A stretch of DNA of 46,463 bases from an uncultured Bacillota bacterium (GTDB lineage Bacteria > Bacillota_I > Bacilli_A > RF39 > UBA660). Under the pieces are notes generated by a model. That model searched no databases. It was not told where the DNA came from and saw nothing but the letters and a program-made list of their open reading frames with translations. Where the stretch lies: the NCBI GenBank assembly GCA_946625165.1, contig CAMOSR010000003.1, positions 1 through 46,463 of the forward strand, written 5' to 3'. Position numbers and translations under genes: made by a program. This document shows, one piece after another, positions 1-6,926 of the stretch (the stretch's first letter is position 1; every line of letters begins with the position of its first letter).

Positions 1-49
1 ATCAAGAAAAAAACAACAGAAGGAATAAAAGAAGAGAAGGAGGCAAAAT

Positions 50-829
50 ATGGTTGATTTTAAATATGATATAAAAAATGAATTAAAAGAATTTTTAGAA
101 GGCTGCAAATGTGAAGAAATAAGTATAGGTTGTTCAGATACTCAAGTTATAAAAGTAGAAAAAAATCAAGAGGAATATTTTTTAAAAATTGGTGATAAAA
201 AAGTTTTACATAATGAGTTTATTAAATTAGATTTTTTGCAATCAAAACTGCCTGTTCCCAATGTTATATTGCATGATATTAATAATAGCATTGAATATAT
301 CGTAACATCTAAAATTCCTGGTGAAATGGTATGTTCTGATTATTATATGGAACATCAATCGGAGGGAATAGACATTATAGTATCAGCTTTTAAAATGTTA
401 TATGATGTAAATATAGATAATTGTCCTATTGACGTTTCCTTAGATTATAAATTGAAACTAGCAGAGGAAAATATATCTAATGGACTAATACTTGAAGAAA
501 ATGTTAGTCAAGAGGCATTAGATAGATTTGGATCAGCTGAAGGGATTTTAAAATATTTAAAGAAAAATAAATTCAAAGAAGATCTGTGTTTTAGCCATGG
601 AGATATAAGTTTACCTAATATATTTGCATATAATAAAGAATTCTCTGGTTTCATTGATGTTGGAGATTGTGGTGTCGCTGATAAATGGTTTGATATTGCT
701 ATAGTCATAAGATCAATAATACGTAATTTTGGGAAAGAATATGTTTCTGAATTTTTAAATAAATTAAATGTTGAATATGATGAATTTAAATATGATTACT
801 ATATGCTCTTAATGCAATTATATTTATAG
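50..829 (+). CDS. APH(3')-like aminoglycoside phosphotransferase family protein
   Basis: FSHGDISLPNIF (HGDxxxxN catalytic motif) followed by GFIDVGDCGVADKWFDIAIVIRSI, resembling the APH(3') signature GFIDLGRxGxADKWYDIAFCVRSI; RBS ggagg upstream. Confidence 0.75.
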   Translation: MVDFKYDIKNELKEFLEGCKCEEISIGCSDTQVIKVEKNQEEYFLKIGDKKVLHNEFIKLDFLQSKLPVPNVILHDINNSIEYIVTSKIPGEMVCSDYYMEHQSEGIDIIVSAFKMLYDVNIDNCPIDVSLDYKLKLAEENISNGLILEENVSQEALDRFGSAEGILKYLKKNKFKEDLCFSHGDISLPNIFAYNKEFSGFIDVGDCGVADKWFDIAIVIRSIIRNFGKEYVSEFLNKLNVEYDEFKYDYYMLLMQLYL

Positions 830-837
830 GAGAAAAT

Positions 838-1314
838 ATGAACTATAATGTAGAAAAATTATCTGATTATATGTATGATAGAGAATTATTTGAAAAATTA
901 TCAAACCAATTATATTATGTGACTGATCACCTTACTATTGATTATCCACATCATTATGAGTGGTATTATAAAAAACATCTACCATTTATTGGTAAAGAGG
1001 AAAGAGAAGTTTTATTTATAAGAAAAAATGATAATATATGTGGTGTAGCATTTCTAAAAAACACTTTAGATGAAAAGAAAATCTGTACTTTCTACGTTGC
1101 TGAATATGCAAGAAACATAGGAATTGGAAGACAATTAATGAAAACATCTATTGAGTATTTACAAACAAAAAAGCCGTTGATTACAATGCCGGCATCGAAA
1201 GTAAGATATTTTTTACATTTTATGTTTAAATACGATTGGAAAATAACACAAATTAAAGATGGTTATTATACTAGAGAACATGACGAAATTGTTTTTAACG
1301 GAACATTAGATTAA
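838..1314 (+). CDS. GNAT family N-acetyltransferase
   Basis: FYVAEYARNIGIGRQLMKTSIEYL resembles the acetyl-CoA binding motif A; 8 bp after the APH gene. Confidence 0.7.
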   Translation: MNYNVEKLSDYMYDRELFEKLSNQLYYVTDHLTIDYPHHYEWYYKKHLPFIGKEEREVLFIRKNDNICGVAFLKNTLDEKKICTFYVAEYARNIGIGRQLMKTSIEYLQTKKPLITMPASKVRYFLHFMFKYDWKITQIKDGYYTREHDEIVFNGTLD

Positions 1315-1315
1315 C

Positions 1316-1347
1316 AAAACTGACTTGATAAATCAAGTCAGTTTTTA
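1316..1347. terminator. Bidirectional rho-independent terminator between convergent GNAT genes
   Basis: AAAACTGACTTGAT-AAATCAAGTCAGTTTTT inverted repeat flanked by A- and T-tracts. Confidence 0.8.
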
Positions 1348-1884
1348 ATTAAGAATAATATTATATCTTAAATCTTTGTGTCCTTTTTTTTCACTACTTG
1401 GGATAGCATTAATGAATTTTCCATAATTTGATTCAATAATTTTCCTTGAAGCAAAGTTATCATCTAAAGTCACAATTATTACATTGTCGATGCCCATTTC
1501 TTTACATTTGTTTAGACATAGTTTAAGTATCTTTTTCCCATACCCTTTTTTTCTTTCAGATGGTCTAATACTATATCCAATATTTCCACCATGTAAATAT
1601 ACATTTAAATTTTTGCATGATGTTCTTATATTTGTGATTCCAACTATTTTGTTTGTAGATTCTTTAATTAGAAAAAATGTGTAACCAGGGCTAACATTTT
1701 TTGGACATGTTCTTTCGTTTTCATATATAGTTAATAAATTTAGCCACGTTTCATACTCATGATAATATTTATCTAAATAGCCAGATCCAATCGCATTTTC
1801 ATTATTCATAAAATATTCTTCAACAAATAATATTGCATCTTTTTTTCTTGAAAGTGTAGGTCTTTCTAAATGTAAATCACACAT
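1345..1884 (-). CDS. GNAT family N-acetyltransferase (RimJ/RimL-like)
   Basis: GYSIRPSERKKGYGKKILKLCLNKCKEMGIDNVIIVTLDDNFASRKIIESNYGKF typical GNAT core. Confidence 0.75.
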   Translation of the reverse strand: MCDLHLERPTLSRKKDAILFVEEYFMNNENAIGSGYLDKYYHEYETWLNLLTIYENERTCPKNVSPGYTFFLIKESTNKIVGITNIRTSCKNLNVYLHGGNIGYSIRPSERKKGYGKKILKLCLNKCKEMGIDNVIIVTLDDNFASRKIIESNYGKFINAIPSSEKKGHKDLRYNIILN

Positions 1885-2154
1885 ATAAATTTCACCTCAT
1901 TTAGAGCGAAAATATTATATCATATTTTTAAAATCTTTAAAATGTTAATATAGAAAATTTTGAACAGAAAAAAGAAGCAAAACTTTATTAAATATAAATA
2001 AAGATAATTATTTAGAATAGTAAAGAATTATGTTATAATTTATTCAAGGGAGATATTAAAGTAGCAAGTAGAAAAATAAATAAAGACTTTAAATATTGTG
2101 GTAGAATAAGTAGAAAAGCCTTAAAAAAAGAAAAAAGAAATAGGAGTTATAGAT

Positions 2155-2769
2155 ATGAAATTATTATTAGCAGGTGGCGGAGAGCCAGATCAAGTTAAAA
2201 AATTAGATGAATATTTTGCAAATTATGTTGTTAATGGTAATGTTCTATATATTCCTGTTGCTATGGATAAAATACCATATAGCGATTGTGAACAATGGTT
2301 TAGAGAAACATATGCAGAATATAATTTACACAATATTGATCTATGTACAGATTTATTTAAAGCACCAAATTTAGATGATTATAAAGCAATTTTTATTGGT
2401 GGTGGAAATACTTTTAAACTTTTAAAAGAGATTAAAGAAAGCGGTTTTGATACCAAAATAAAAGACTATTTGGAAAATGGTGGTTTTATATATGGTGGTT
2501 CTGCGGGAGCTATTATATTTGGTGAAACTATAGAAACTTCTAGTCATGCAGATAAAAATTTAGTAGGTCTTACAGATTTAACCGGTTTAAATTTATTAAA
2601 AGGCTACGATGTTTGGTGCCATTATAATGAAGATAAAGATAAAAAAGGAGTTTTAGAATTAAAGCGTCCAACATTTGTCTTGTATGAAGAATCAGGATTA
2701 TTATTTGATGACAATAAATTTGAAACTATAGGTAAAGAACCGTTAGTATTTCCAGATGATTTTGAGTAA
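2155..2769 (+). CDS. Peptidase S51 / dipeptidase E-like protein
   Basis: IFIGGGNTFKLLKEIK and IYGGSAGAIIFG (nucleophile-Ser GxSAGA) motifs. Confidence 0.75.
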   Translation: MKLLLAGGGEPDQVKKLDEYFANYVVNGNVLYIPVAMDKIPYSDCEQWFRETYAEYNLHNIDLCTDLFKAPNLDDYKAIFIGGGNTFKLLKEIKESGFDTKIKDYLENGGFIYGGSAGAIIFGETIETSSHADKNLVGLTDLTGLNLLKGYDVWCHYNEDKDKKGVLELKRPTFVLYEESGLLFDDNKFETIGKEPLVFPDDFE

Positions 2770-2792
2770 TTAAAAGTAAAGGCGTGATATTT

Positions 2793-3305
2793 ATGAGTTA
2801 TAAATGTAAAATAGCATCTTTAGAAGAATTAAGTAAAAAATATGACTATGAAATTGAAATTCATCCAAATGATAACAAATGGAAAGAATTTAAAAAAATA
2901 TCACTTAAAAATTTTAATACTAGAATTACTTATATAGGTTTGTTAGATGATAGAATTATTACTGAAGCTACTGCAATTATTTCAGAAGATGATTTAGATA
3001 TGCAAAATAAAGAAGGATTAATTAATAAATCTACTGCATATTTAACCGGCTTTAGATCTAACAAAGAATATGAAGGAAAAGGCTATTTTTCAAAATTATA
3101 TAAATATATGGAAAGTGATTTAAAACAAAAAGGTTTTAAAAAACTAACATTAGGTGTTGAACCAAATGAAGTAAAAAATATGCAAATATATTTTAACTGG
3201 GGATATACCAATTATATAAAAACAGCATATGAAGAATATCCTATCTATAACGAAAATAGACAACCAGAAATAATAGTGGTGAATTATTATTATAAAAATA
3301 TTTAA
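2793..3305 (+). CDS. GNAT family N-acetyltransferase
   Basis: AYLTGFRSNKEYEGKGYFSKLYKYMESDLKQKGFKKLTLGVEPNEVKNMQIYFNWGY; ATG at 2793 preferred over GTG at 2784. Confidence 0.7.
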   Translation: MSYKCKIASLEELSKKYDYEIEIHPNDNKWKEFKKISLKNFNTRITYIGLLDDRIITEATAIISEDDLDMQNKEGLINKSTAYLTGFRSNKEYEGKGYFSKLYKYMESDLKQKGFKKLTLGVEPNEVKNMQIYFNWGYTNYIKTAYEEYPIYNENRQPEIIVVNYYYKNI

Positions 3306-3846: not shown

Positions 3847-4233
3847 ATGCGAAAAATATCTATGACTATTGATTAAGATACTTATAATATGCTTCAAAAA
3901 TATATGAAAAAAAATAAGCTTAAAAATGTAAGTAGAACTATCGCATTTTTACTTAGAGATGCTTTAGAAGAAGAAAAATATTTATCTAATATTTCATTGG
4001 TTGATAATAAATTAAACAAAATTTTATATAGAATAAGTATGTATAAAAATCTTTTGGAGCAGATGTATGTTAATTTTGGATTTCCAAAAAACCAAGATGT
4101 TAGAAACAATGAACTTTTAAAAGAGTTTTATTACAAAAATAATAAATTTTGGGAACTTAAACAATATGAAATTGATCATAAACATTTAGAAGTTTACCGT
4201 AAAAAAGTAAACTTCTTTTTGTTTTTTGCATAA
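3847..4233 (+). pseudogene. Ribbon-helix-helix (CopG/MobC-like) protein with in-frame TAA at codon 10
   Basis: Frame from ATG 3847 with RBS aaggaggtg reads MRKISMTID*DTYNMLQKYMKKNKLKNVSRTIAFLLRDAL; TAA at 3874-3876; the ORF track starts only at the internal ATG 3889. Confidence 0.6.
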
Positions 4234-4253: not shown

Positions 4254-4382
4254 TTGAAAGGGGAAAAAGTTTTAAATAAAGCATTAGACTATGCTTATAT
4301 AAAAAAATTATTAAAATTAAAACTTATTAGTGAAAAAGAATATAAATTAATAAAAGAAAAAATAGATAACTATTATATATAG
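4254..4382 (+). CDS. SHOCT-like 42-aa protein upstream of serine recombinase
   Basis: TTG start after ggggggtataaat; MKGEKVLNKALDYAYIKKLLKLKLISEKEYKLIKEKIDNYYI*; resembles short SHOCT-type ORFs found beside integrative-element recombinases. Confidence 0.55.
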   Translation: MKGEKVLNKALDYAYIKKLLKLKLISEKEYKLIKEKIDNYYI

Positions 4383-4457: not shown

Positions 4458-6137
4458 ATGACAGAGGTAAAGATTATCAAAGCAAAAACAAGTGATGATA
4501 ATACTTCCTTAAATAAAGAAAAGAAAAAAGTATGTGGTTATGCTAGAGTAAGTACAGATAGTGATGAACAAATAACAAGTTACAAATCACAAATACAGCA
4601 TTATACAAAAATAATTAAAGACAATCCTGACTGGATATTTGTTGGAATGTATGCAGATGAAGGTATCTCAGGAACGCAGGTTAAAAATAGAGTTCAGTTT
4701 AAAAAAATGATAAAAGATGCTAAAGAAGGTAAAATTGATATGATAATTGCTAAATCAATATCAAGATTTGCTAGAAACACTATGGACACATTAAAATATG
4801 TAAGAGAACTTAGAGATAAAAGAGTAGATATTTATTTTGAAAAAGAAAACATTCATACATTAAATTTAGATAGTGAAATGTTTTTAACTTTATATAGTGC
4901 TTTTGCCCAAGCCGAATCAGAATCAACCTCACAAAATGTAAAAATGGGATTAAAAGCTAAAATGAAACAAGGCGGATACTGCGGTCAAGCTAATCCTTTT
5001 GGTTATAACTGGAACAAAAAATTAAAAAAATTAGAAATAAACAAAAAAGAAGCACCAACCGCTAAACTAATATTTGAACTATATGAAAAAGGACTTGGGT
5101 GTAAAAGGATTGCCGAAAAACTTAATGAGTTAGGGCTACAACCCAGAATTGCAGATAAATGGGATAGTAAAAAAATATCTAGAGTGATCAAAAATGAAAA
5201 ATATGTTGGCGATCTTCTAGGTCAAAAATACTATGTAGATGATCCAATGACTCACAAGAAAAAAAAGAACTTTGGCGAAAAAGAACAGTACTATGCAAAT
5301 GATGTACATGAAGCTATTATCTCAAGAGATTTATGGAATAAATGTCAGGAAATATACAAAAAAAGAAGTAAAAAATATGCTAAAGAACAAGGACATACTA
5401 CTAAATATAGTATGAAATATCCCTTTAGTAGTAAAATAGAATGTGGCTGTTGTAATGGTTCTTATACCAGAAGACTAGGCGGTAAATCTGGCAAAGAAAA
5501 TAAAAGAGTTGCTTACTGGCGATGCTCTAATATAGTTTATAATAAAGAAAGCTGCCAAGCTAAAGACTCTATAAGAGAAGTATATATAGAAGATATGTTT
5601 AAATGTTTATTTAATAAACTGGCTTTACATAAATATAATAAAAATCATTTAAAAGATATTATAAAAGATGTTTTAAATGATAAAGATAACGAAAGCATAC
5701 TTAAAAATCTTTATGAAGAAAAAAAGAATTATGAGGAAAGATTATCACATTTGATAGATCTAAAATTAGATAATTTTGATAATGTAAAGGTTTACGAAAG
5801 TAAAGAAAAAGAGTTAACCGAGAGATTAAAAGAAATAAATGACAGCATTAAACAACAATTAAAAGAAGTAAGCAAAGATAACAAAATAGAAAAACAACTA
5901 TTAGAAATAGAAAAAATATTAGATATGAATATATCCATAGATGAATTTGATGAGGATCTATTTAAGTTATTAATAAAAAAAGTAGTAATTGGAGATTATA
6001 ACGAAAATGGATTGTTTAACCCAAATACTGTAAAATTTATACTTAATATAGACGAGAAAGGCTTTATTTTTGGGAGGAAAAATGCTATGTCAAACTATGA
6101 CGAAAACATCTCCAGCTGGACCACCATACTGCGTTAA
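4458..6137 (+). CDS. Large serine recombinase (resolvase + recombinase + zinc ribbon domains)
   Basis: GYARVSTDSDEQITSYKSQ (catalytic Ser region), ISRFARNTMDTL, FAQAESESTSQNVKMGL, zinc ribbon CGCCNGSYTRR...YWRCSN, coiled coil near the C-terminus. Confidence 0.95.
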   Translation: MTEVKIIKAKTSDDNTSLNKEKKKVCGYARVSTDSDEQITSYKSQIQHYTKIIKDNPDWIFVGMYADEGISGTQVKNRVQFKKMIKDAKEGKIDMIIAKSISRFARNTMDTLKYVRELRDKRVDIYFEKENIHTLNLDSEMFLTLYSAFAQAESESTSQNVKMGLKAKMKQGGYCGQANPFGYNWNKKLKKLEINKKEAPTAKLIFELYEKGLGCKRIAEKLNELGLQPRIADKWDSKKISRVIKNEKYVGDLLGQKYYVDDPMTHKKKKNFGEKEQYYANDVHEAIISRDLWNKCQEIYKKRSKKYAKEQGHTTKYSMKYPFSSKIECGCCNGSYTRRLGGKSGKENKRVAYWRCSNIVYNKESCQAKDSIREVYIEDMFKCLFNKLALHKYNKNHLKDIIKDVLNDKDNESILKNLYEEKKNYEERLSHLIDLKLDNFDNVKVYESKEKELTERLKEINDSIKQQLKEVSKDNKIEKQLLEIEKILDMNISIDEFDEDLFKLLIKKVVIGDYNENGLFNPNTVKFILNIDEKGFIFGRKNAMSNYDENISSWTTILR

Positions 6138-6212
6138 AATACATTTAGCCATATTTAAATCTTTGTTTTTAATATTAACTGGATATTGCAATTTTTTTTC
6201 ATATTTCCACAT
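6090..6212 (-). pseudogene. cotJC: Truncated cotJC (manganese-catalase-family spore coat protein), N-terminal fragment at element junction
   Basis: Minus-strand ATG at 6212: MWKYEKKLQYPVNIKNKDLNMAKCILTQYGGPAG|DVFVIV*; first 34 aa match the recalled CotJC N-terminus (MWxYEKKLxYPVNIKNP...ITQYGGPxGE), then diverge and stop. Starts 10 bp after the cotJAB stop. Confidence 0.85.
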
Positions 6213-6222
6213 AACTAACCCC

Positions 6223-6768
6223 CTAATAATTTTCCCATGGCCAAGGAGAATCATTCCATGCCCAAGGATAAGTTTTACTCGAATCCACAAAAAGTGGACC
6301 GTATTTAGTTTCATATTCTTTTATAACGTTATTAGAATCTTCTGATAACTCCTTAAATAAATTAATCATATCTCTATCATAAGGATGAGTATCTAAATAT
6401 AAATTTACCTCGTGAGCCGCAAAACAATATGCATCAACCTTAGTAAGAAGTTCTGCCTGCTCATTCATTGGTTTTATGTCATAAGGCCTACTTAATTTAT
6501 ATTGATTAAATAATTCAGGAAACATATTACCTCTAATAAACCCATTATAAATATCATACAGTTTATTTGGATCTGCATCGCCACTATAACCGCACATATT
6601 GAAAGTCATATTGTCGCCCGCTTGTTTTTTAAGCTTATTTATTAGTTTCATATCAATATTAGAATTATTGTAATTTACCTGACCATTTAAATTATTAAAA
6701 GCGCCAGGATATATAGAATTGAAATTGTTTGGCATGTTTATCTCACCTGCATTATAATAGTTATTCAT
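6223..6768 (-). CDS. CotJA-CotJB fusion spore coat protein
   Basis: C-terminal half LDTHPYDRDMINLFKELSEDSNNVIKEYETKYGPL...YPWAWNDSPWPWENY is CotJB-like; middle LYDIYNGFIRGNMFPELFNQYK is CotJA-like; single ORF with ggagg RBS. Confidence 0.8.
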   Translation of the reverse strand: MNNYYNAGEINMPNNFNSIYPGAFNNLNGQVNYNNSNIDMKLINKLKKQAGDNMTFNMCGYSGDADPNKLYDIYNGFIRGNMFPELFNQYKLSRPYDIKPMNEQAELLTKVDAYCFAAHEVNLYLDTHPYDRDMINLFKELSEDSNNVIKEYETKYGPLFVDSSKTYPWAWNDSPWPWENY

Positions 6769-6926
6769 CTAATTACCTCCCTCACAGTATAGTATGAAAT
6801 CTAAAAAGTGAAGTGTAGTTAATAGCCCAGTAGTAAAACATATACATGAAAACAAATTAAATAAGTAAAAACATTGAAATACATTTGTTCGTGTGGTAAA
6901 ATATTTTAAATAGAAGGAGGAACATT

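Follow-up and report, generated by a model that had tools for sequence, protein, structure and literature searches.

The window analyzed here is the entire contig C3 (46,463 bp) of MAG G000, an assembly of 812 kb in 42 contigs with a completeness of 74%. The original prediction described a serine recombinase gene adjoining a truncated cotJC gene behind cotJAB, and the domain matches of both genes confirmed this arrangement. The following features were assigned.

50–829, plus strand: element cargo, APH-family kinase (Pfam match)
838–1314, plus strand: element cargo, GNAT (Pfam match)
1345–1884, minus strand: element cargo, GNAT (Pfam match)
2155–2769, plus strand: element cargo, S51 peptidase (Pfam match)
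2784–3305, plus strand: element cargo, GNAT (Pfam match)
4254–4382, plus strand: short ORF of 42 aa with a TTG start, immediately 5′ of the recombinase gene (sequence and position only)
4458–6137, plus strand: large serine recombinase (LSR), 559 aa (PF00239 Resolvase, 3.3e-34; PF07508 Recombinase, 4.7e-23; PF13408 Zn-ribbon, 1.6e-9)
6086–6094, minus strand: arm motif of attL, TTTGACATA, at offset 14 from the core (shared, at the identical offset, with attL and attR of G016 and attL of G033)
6090–6108, minus strand: element-derived tail of the chimeric cotJC frame (sequence; stop 6092–6090)
6109–6110, minus strand: crossover dinucleotide GA, site A (bases common to the N side and the C side in G016)
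6109–6212, minus strand: cotJC 5′ half, codons 1–34 and bases 1–2 of codon 35 (PF05067 positions 1–38, 30.1 bits)
6223–6768, minus strand: cotJAB-type ORF with CotJB domain, upstream partner of cotJC (PF12652, 1.7e-25)
6789–6818, minus strand: cotJ promoter, putatively of the sigma-E type (CATACTAT box, with ACAC upstream where ATAC is usual)

The cotJC start codon (ATG, 6212) was located 10 bases past the cotJAB ORF, and its 34 codons read MWKYEKKLQYPVNIKNKDLNMAKCILTQYGGPAG. The minus-strand frame then continued as D-V-F-V-I-V and ended at the stop codon 6092–6090. The score of this 40-residue chimeric ORF against PF05067 positions 1–38 (30 bits, E 3e-7) exceeded the Pfam cut-off, and thus the 5′ half was not a chance match; it agreed with the type of intact relatives in 34/34 residues. 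The earlier identification of 34 CotJC codons held, and the end was refined to codon 34 plus two bases of codon 35 (GA, 6110–6109). It had also been claimed that the frame stopped exactly where the recombinase gene ended, at 6090, which was wrong: the LSR stop codon is 6135–6137, past the junction. The LSR frame extended ~27 bases beyond the junction, so that its last ~9 codons were antisense cotJC. The C-terminus of the G016 LSR overran its junction in the same way, and the C-termini of LSR relatives elsewhere in Bacilli were variable and ended just beyond a GTGTCA-like arm. Upstream of cotJ, the pattern ATA-N(13-17)-CATA was present in 37 of 40 related loci; the copy in the window was one base off and was assigned by position.

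The cargo spanned positions 1–3305, the left boundary of the element fell beyond the contig end, and the Pfam matches revealed no phage genes in the window element. The short ORF at 4254–4382 may encode a directionality factor, and a similar short ORF preceded the G016 recombinase; no homology of the window ORF to any known directionality factor was found. A small ORF at 3847–4233 (MRKISMTID-stop-...) was interrupted in frame by TAA as its tenth codon and may be what is left of a DNA-binding gene carried by the island. The remainder of cotJC was absent from the window, as had been noted originally; the window being the entire contig, there was no sequence left of base 1 in which to look for it, as had been proposed, and neither a profile search nor a degenerate DNA pattern detected the 3′ half in the rest of the 812-kb assembly. 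The absence of a 3′ fragment, or a second intact cotJC with no excision junction in reads, had been regarded as evidence against an intervening element; the 3′ fragment was indeed not found, but neither was a second cotJC in this 812-kb, 74% complete assembly. Gene order downstream of cotJC differed among genomes, and two landmarks for the missing half were dropped: typA, which has different downstream genes in G000 (C24), and an addB-like gene, next after cotJC in G003 but located elsewhere in the window. In the G000 MAG, spoIVA, yabG, gpr, and the genes of the sporulation-sigma type were all intact.

The comparison with relatives, which had been proposed originally, covered 45 genomes of the genus, 42 of them with a cotJC match. 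The gene was intact in most and cut by an element in ~10 of the 42 (about a quarter). Site A (GGPAG^ELA) was occupied in the window, G016, and G033; site B (GTEE^LAH) was cut in G019, G029, G037, G040, and G042. In G039 and G017, a site-B attR was accompanied by a cotJC allele or copy that seemed uninterrupted. In G039, the uninterrupted and attR alleles (L045/L046, C76/C18) overlapped by exactly 55 bp at the contig end; their reading as excised and integrated forms was rejected, as core-adjacent SNPs suggested two strains. Contig C32 of G017 (L047) carried two tandem cotJC 3′ parts 4.3 kb apart with no recombinase between them, one apparently belonging to an uninterrupted copy that runs off the end of the contig and the other behind the site-B attR arm.

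At site A, the two cotJC halves of G016 were found on two contigs, the N-half on C53 after cotJAB and the C-half on C62 before typA, and these flanks matched the surroundings of intact cotJC in relatives. Joining the halves at GA in silico gave an uninterrupted full-length CotJC in frame. The same operation restored the CotJC frame in G019 and G040, and partly in G037, where the contig ends inside the C-half. G019, G037, G058, and G071 each had both halves, equally oriented, on a single contig. In G019, they were 57 kb apart, and the element was a prophage of the siphovirus type, with genes for portal, protease, capsid, tape measure, holin, and endolysin. By comparison, the complete element that separated the halves on a 3.9-kb contig of G037 measured only 2.9 kb; it contained the LSR, a LytTR response regulator, and one short ORF, without transfer or virion genes. 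This minimal element was common to G037 (L041, C117) and G042 (L043, C36), two species that inherited it, and a CATATAAT-type box was located ~20 bases upstream of the LSR in both. On contig C62 of G016 (L033:880-1842), a tyrosine recombinase was observed at the attR end, with the serine recombinase at the attL end, which may represent a composite element or a nested insertion.

The family sample comprised 108 genomes, nearly all of distinct genera (107 genera), and about 10 more genera (about a tenth) had cotJC cut at site B or C. Site-B cuts were found in G048, G058, G067, G071, G075, and G152, and G058 and G071 retained the halves on one contig. The third site, C (QYGG^), was cut in G165, G180, G190, and G181, and also in G072 beside an intact copy. 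Outside the focal family, cotJC of the Oscillospiraceae MAG RGIG4308 (L101:10560-11000) was truncated at the same place, after 31 codons (QLGG^), with phage-like genes adjoining.

The predicted attB sequence was GGTCCAGCTGGAGARCTNGCNGC. Sites A and B had the same core, GA, with which a Glu codon begins. The type A arms had TTTGACA at an exact offset of 14 bases from the core in attL of G000, G016, and G033, and inverted on attR of G016, a comparison of four arms in which both sides were seen only in G016. Among 20 type B arms, which came partly from related elements and hence were not all independent, information also peaked at offset 14 with a motif like GTTATCAGT. This peak reached 8.3 bits over 9 columns, compared with a shuffle maximum of 2.1 in a scan over all offsets. 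Offset 14 corresponds to position 16–24 when one core base is counted as position 1, and the zinc-ribbon motif occupies position 16–24 in the solved attP half-site of a serine integrase (PMC3783163). By analogy, the arm motif in the window is likely contacted by the zinc-ribbon domain of the recombinase. Because the arm motifs lie at a fixed offset that matches this position, the cotJC junctions are very probably genuine serine-integrase attachment sites. It is practically certain that a site-specific LSR element resides in cotJC.

The window LSR and the site-A recombinase of G016 shared 58% identity and grouped together in the LSR tree (100/99), nested among relatives without cotJC in their flanks. 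Type B recombinases fell in a separate clade that included the integrase of Paenibacillus larvae phage Pl23, and the one site-C LSR included in the tree was placed apart from both. Since the three types fell separately, three or more recombinase lineages appear to have arrived at cotJC independently of each other's type, subject to the reservation that some branches were long and their placement unsure. Recombinase relatives at ~50% identity elsewhere in Bacilli (L052-L068) had flanks without cotJC, and scans of viral contigs with the recombinases and CotJC returned only distant recombinases or nothing.

Other sporulation genes were cut in a similar manner. The spoIVA gene, which is central to coat assembly and required for sporulation in B. 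subtilis, was cut at VAPSIH^MIRV in G017 (L189/L190) and G025 (L191/L192) and at HTPW^YEE in G004 (L193/L194) and G008 (L195/L196), and G007 (L204) contained an extra cut allele. An LSR adjoined the C-half of spoIVA in G017, G025, and G004; in the last, the halves were 44 kb apart on one contig and the element had phage lysis genes. In G032, an S11 D,D-carboxypeptidase gene was split, with the LSR directly before the C-half (L219:2672-5132, C14) and the N-half at C39:4254-4541. In G014:C1 (L220:2906-4687), an LSR was followed by a 70-residue spoVD fragment (TIGR02214, 3.7e-29) with a stop soon after, a cut or remnant spoVD. In B. subtilis, the mother-cell genes include cotJC, spoIVA, and spoVD. 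As controls, typA, yabG, gpr, and the sporulation-sigma-type genes showed no element cuts, only contig-edge truncations or absence, and yabG was intact across the genus wherever it was found complete. The relatives' genomes with cuts retained their sporulation genes.

An LSR integrated a mobile island site-specifically at GA in codon 35 of cotJC, which encodes a Mn-catalase-like spore-coat protein of this uncultured spore former, and one end of the island, attL, lies in the window. The gene is split as long as the element is resident. We propose that, during sporulation, the recombinase and a directionality factor would excise the element in the mother cell by recombination of attL with attR, and the cotJC reading frame would be rebuilt; the mother cell would die afterwards and the spore would retain the element. 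We assign this explanation as a whole a probability of about 0.65, and the rebuilding of cotJC by excision in sporulating cells is itself likely, at about two in three. For G000 itself, we infer that the cotJC 3′ half is present and that the element is excised in the mother cell with the help of a directionality factor as in this scheme. The relation of an intervening element to cotJC, as originally suggested, was supported in part; its core, a site-specific LSR insertion in a mother-cell sporulation gene with a layout from which excision could restore the gene, was well supported by relatives with both halves (G016 at site A; G019, G037, G058, and G071 at site B).

The original prediction had also allowed that cotJC was simply disrupted. 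According to this account, cotJC merely offers good attB sites, the element remains in place or leaves only to transfer itself, and CotJC function, being dispensable, is lost for as long as the element is resident. Some observations are compatible with it: G019, and probably G029 and G004, contain prophages that could be mere lysogens, and no convincing mother-cell promoter was found upstream of the window LSR. The type A element also moved recently, as the arms of G016 and G033 were 99.1% identical and their hosts diverged much more (N-half 85%, cotJAB 75%), so the cotJC halves there had little time for decay. In C. difficile, knock-outs of cotJC homologues show little coat phenotype (PMC11222575). 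However, the halves stayed conserved, and the minimal element of G037 and G042, with no transfer or virion genes, was retained in cotJC by descent (89.1% nucleotide identity for the element and 92.7% for cotJAB). Since insertion of this site-B element, the cotJC 5′ half of the two species (66 codons) had accumulated 7 synonymous and 0 nonsynonymous codon changes; the chance of 7:0 is ~6e-5, assuming that about three quarters of random changes are nonsynonymous. This pattern indicates that the 5′ half is under purifying selection after insertion. The split cotJC of G019 also pointed to selection, with a pN of 0.002 and a pS of 0.163 compared with intact G027, although that insertion may be recent. 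In addition, spoIVA was cut likewise even though sporulation needs it in B. subtilis. Because of the selection on the 5′ half, the choice of mother-cell genes over control genes, and the retained sporulation genes, restoration is favored over disruption, and a plain insertion with loss of CotJC function seems rather unlikely.

Excision might instead respond to another signal, such as stress or growth phase, independently of sporulation, and restore cotJC in part of the population. The LytTR response regulator on the minimal element would suit such active lysogeny, and yin in yabG has excised and integrated subpopulations depending on growth phase (PMC10747680). However, it leaves unexplained why the cuts fall in mother-cell genes and spare typA, yabG, gpr, and the sigma genes, and we consider it very improbable. 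Because the data are MAGs, chimeric assemblies or contig ends could also imitate a cut, and the apparent cotJC insertions in G026, G021, and G012 were rejected for this reason, being plain contig ends with no foreign arm. Against such an artefact, junctions of the same base-exact type, with the arm motif at the same offset, recurred in many independently assembled genomes, by which this explanation is effectively refuted.

Given mother-cell excision as the preferred reading, the window element is most likely, by analogy, a cotJC-intervening element of the skin, SPbeta, and gin kind. Intervened sporulation genes described in the literature include sigK (skin), spsM (SPbeta), spoVFB (vfbin), spoVR (vrin), gerE (gin), and yabG (yin), each in one or a few species. 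The window cargo, an APH-family kinase, three GNATs, and an S51 peptidase, most resembles that of gin, which splits gerE in Bacillus cereus ATCC 10987 and has three recombinase genes, the proven factor GirX, and proven sporulation-specific excision (PMC5595907). Both are non-phage islands with a serine recombinase that split a mother-cell gene with crossover at a short shared sequence, whereas they differ in the target, in the single recombinase and single end visible in the window, and in that excision is proven only for gin. The skin element, for which excision and the directionality factor are proven in B. subtilis and C. difficile (PMC5025042), likewise combines a serine recombinase with a split mother-cell gene, but its target is the sigma factor gene sigK. 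SPbeta, whose prophage-borne serine recombinase splits the spore-envelope gene spsM (PMC4191935), is the closest parallel of the G019 prophage; the window element, by contrast, shows no phage genes. The yin element of C. botulinum also intervenes in a spore-coat-related gene (PMC10747680), and yabG is intact in the genus of the window in every genome with a complete copy.

No intervening element in cotJC or spoIVA was found in the open-access papers searched, and both would be new intervened targets. The surprising part is the recurrence across the family on cotJC and other mother-cell genes. We put at even odds the broader idea that mother-cell genes (cotJC with three sites, spoIVA with two, spoVD, and the D,D-carboxypeptidase gene) serve as standing safe harbors for phages and islands of unrelated kinds throughout this family of uncultured spore formers with small genomes. 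Late sporulation would then draw in part on genes habitually stored split and assembled by mother-cell excision, and some elements would have been reduced to dedicated switches of 2.9 kb. Recurrence in the genus, in the family, and in at least three LSR lineages would provide natural replicates for asking what draws elements to mother-cell genes. It also cautions that coat genes found split in MAGs should not simply be read as pseudogenes.

The idea of the terminal cell as a safe harbor may be directly testable in cultured phages with matching attachment-site anatomy. The recombinase of the minimal site-B element shared 42 and 39% identity over its full length with the integrases of Paenibacillus phage phiIBB_Pl23 and Dorea phage DO134P1, respectively, which are kin of type B, not of type A in the window. 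In these two phages (L246 and L247) and in phage MT835739 (L245), a dyad with a GA/TC core and offset-14 motifs was located at most 40 bp after the integrase gene. This anatomy predicts an attB in cotJC of their hosts, and the core region of MT835739, GAACTGGCTCAT, resembled site B of cotJC.
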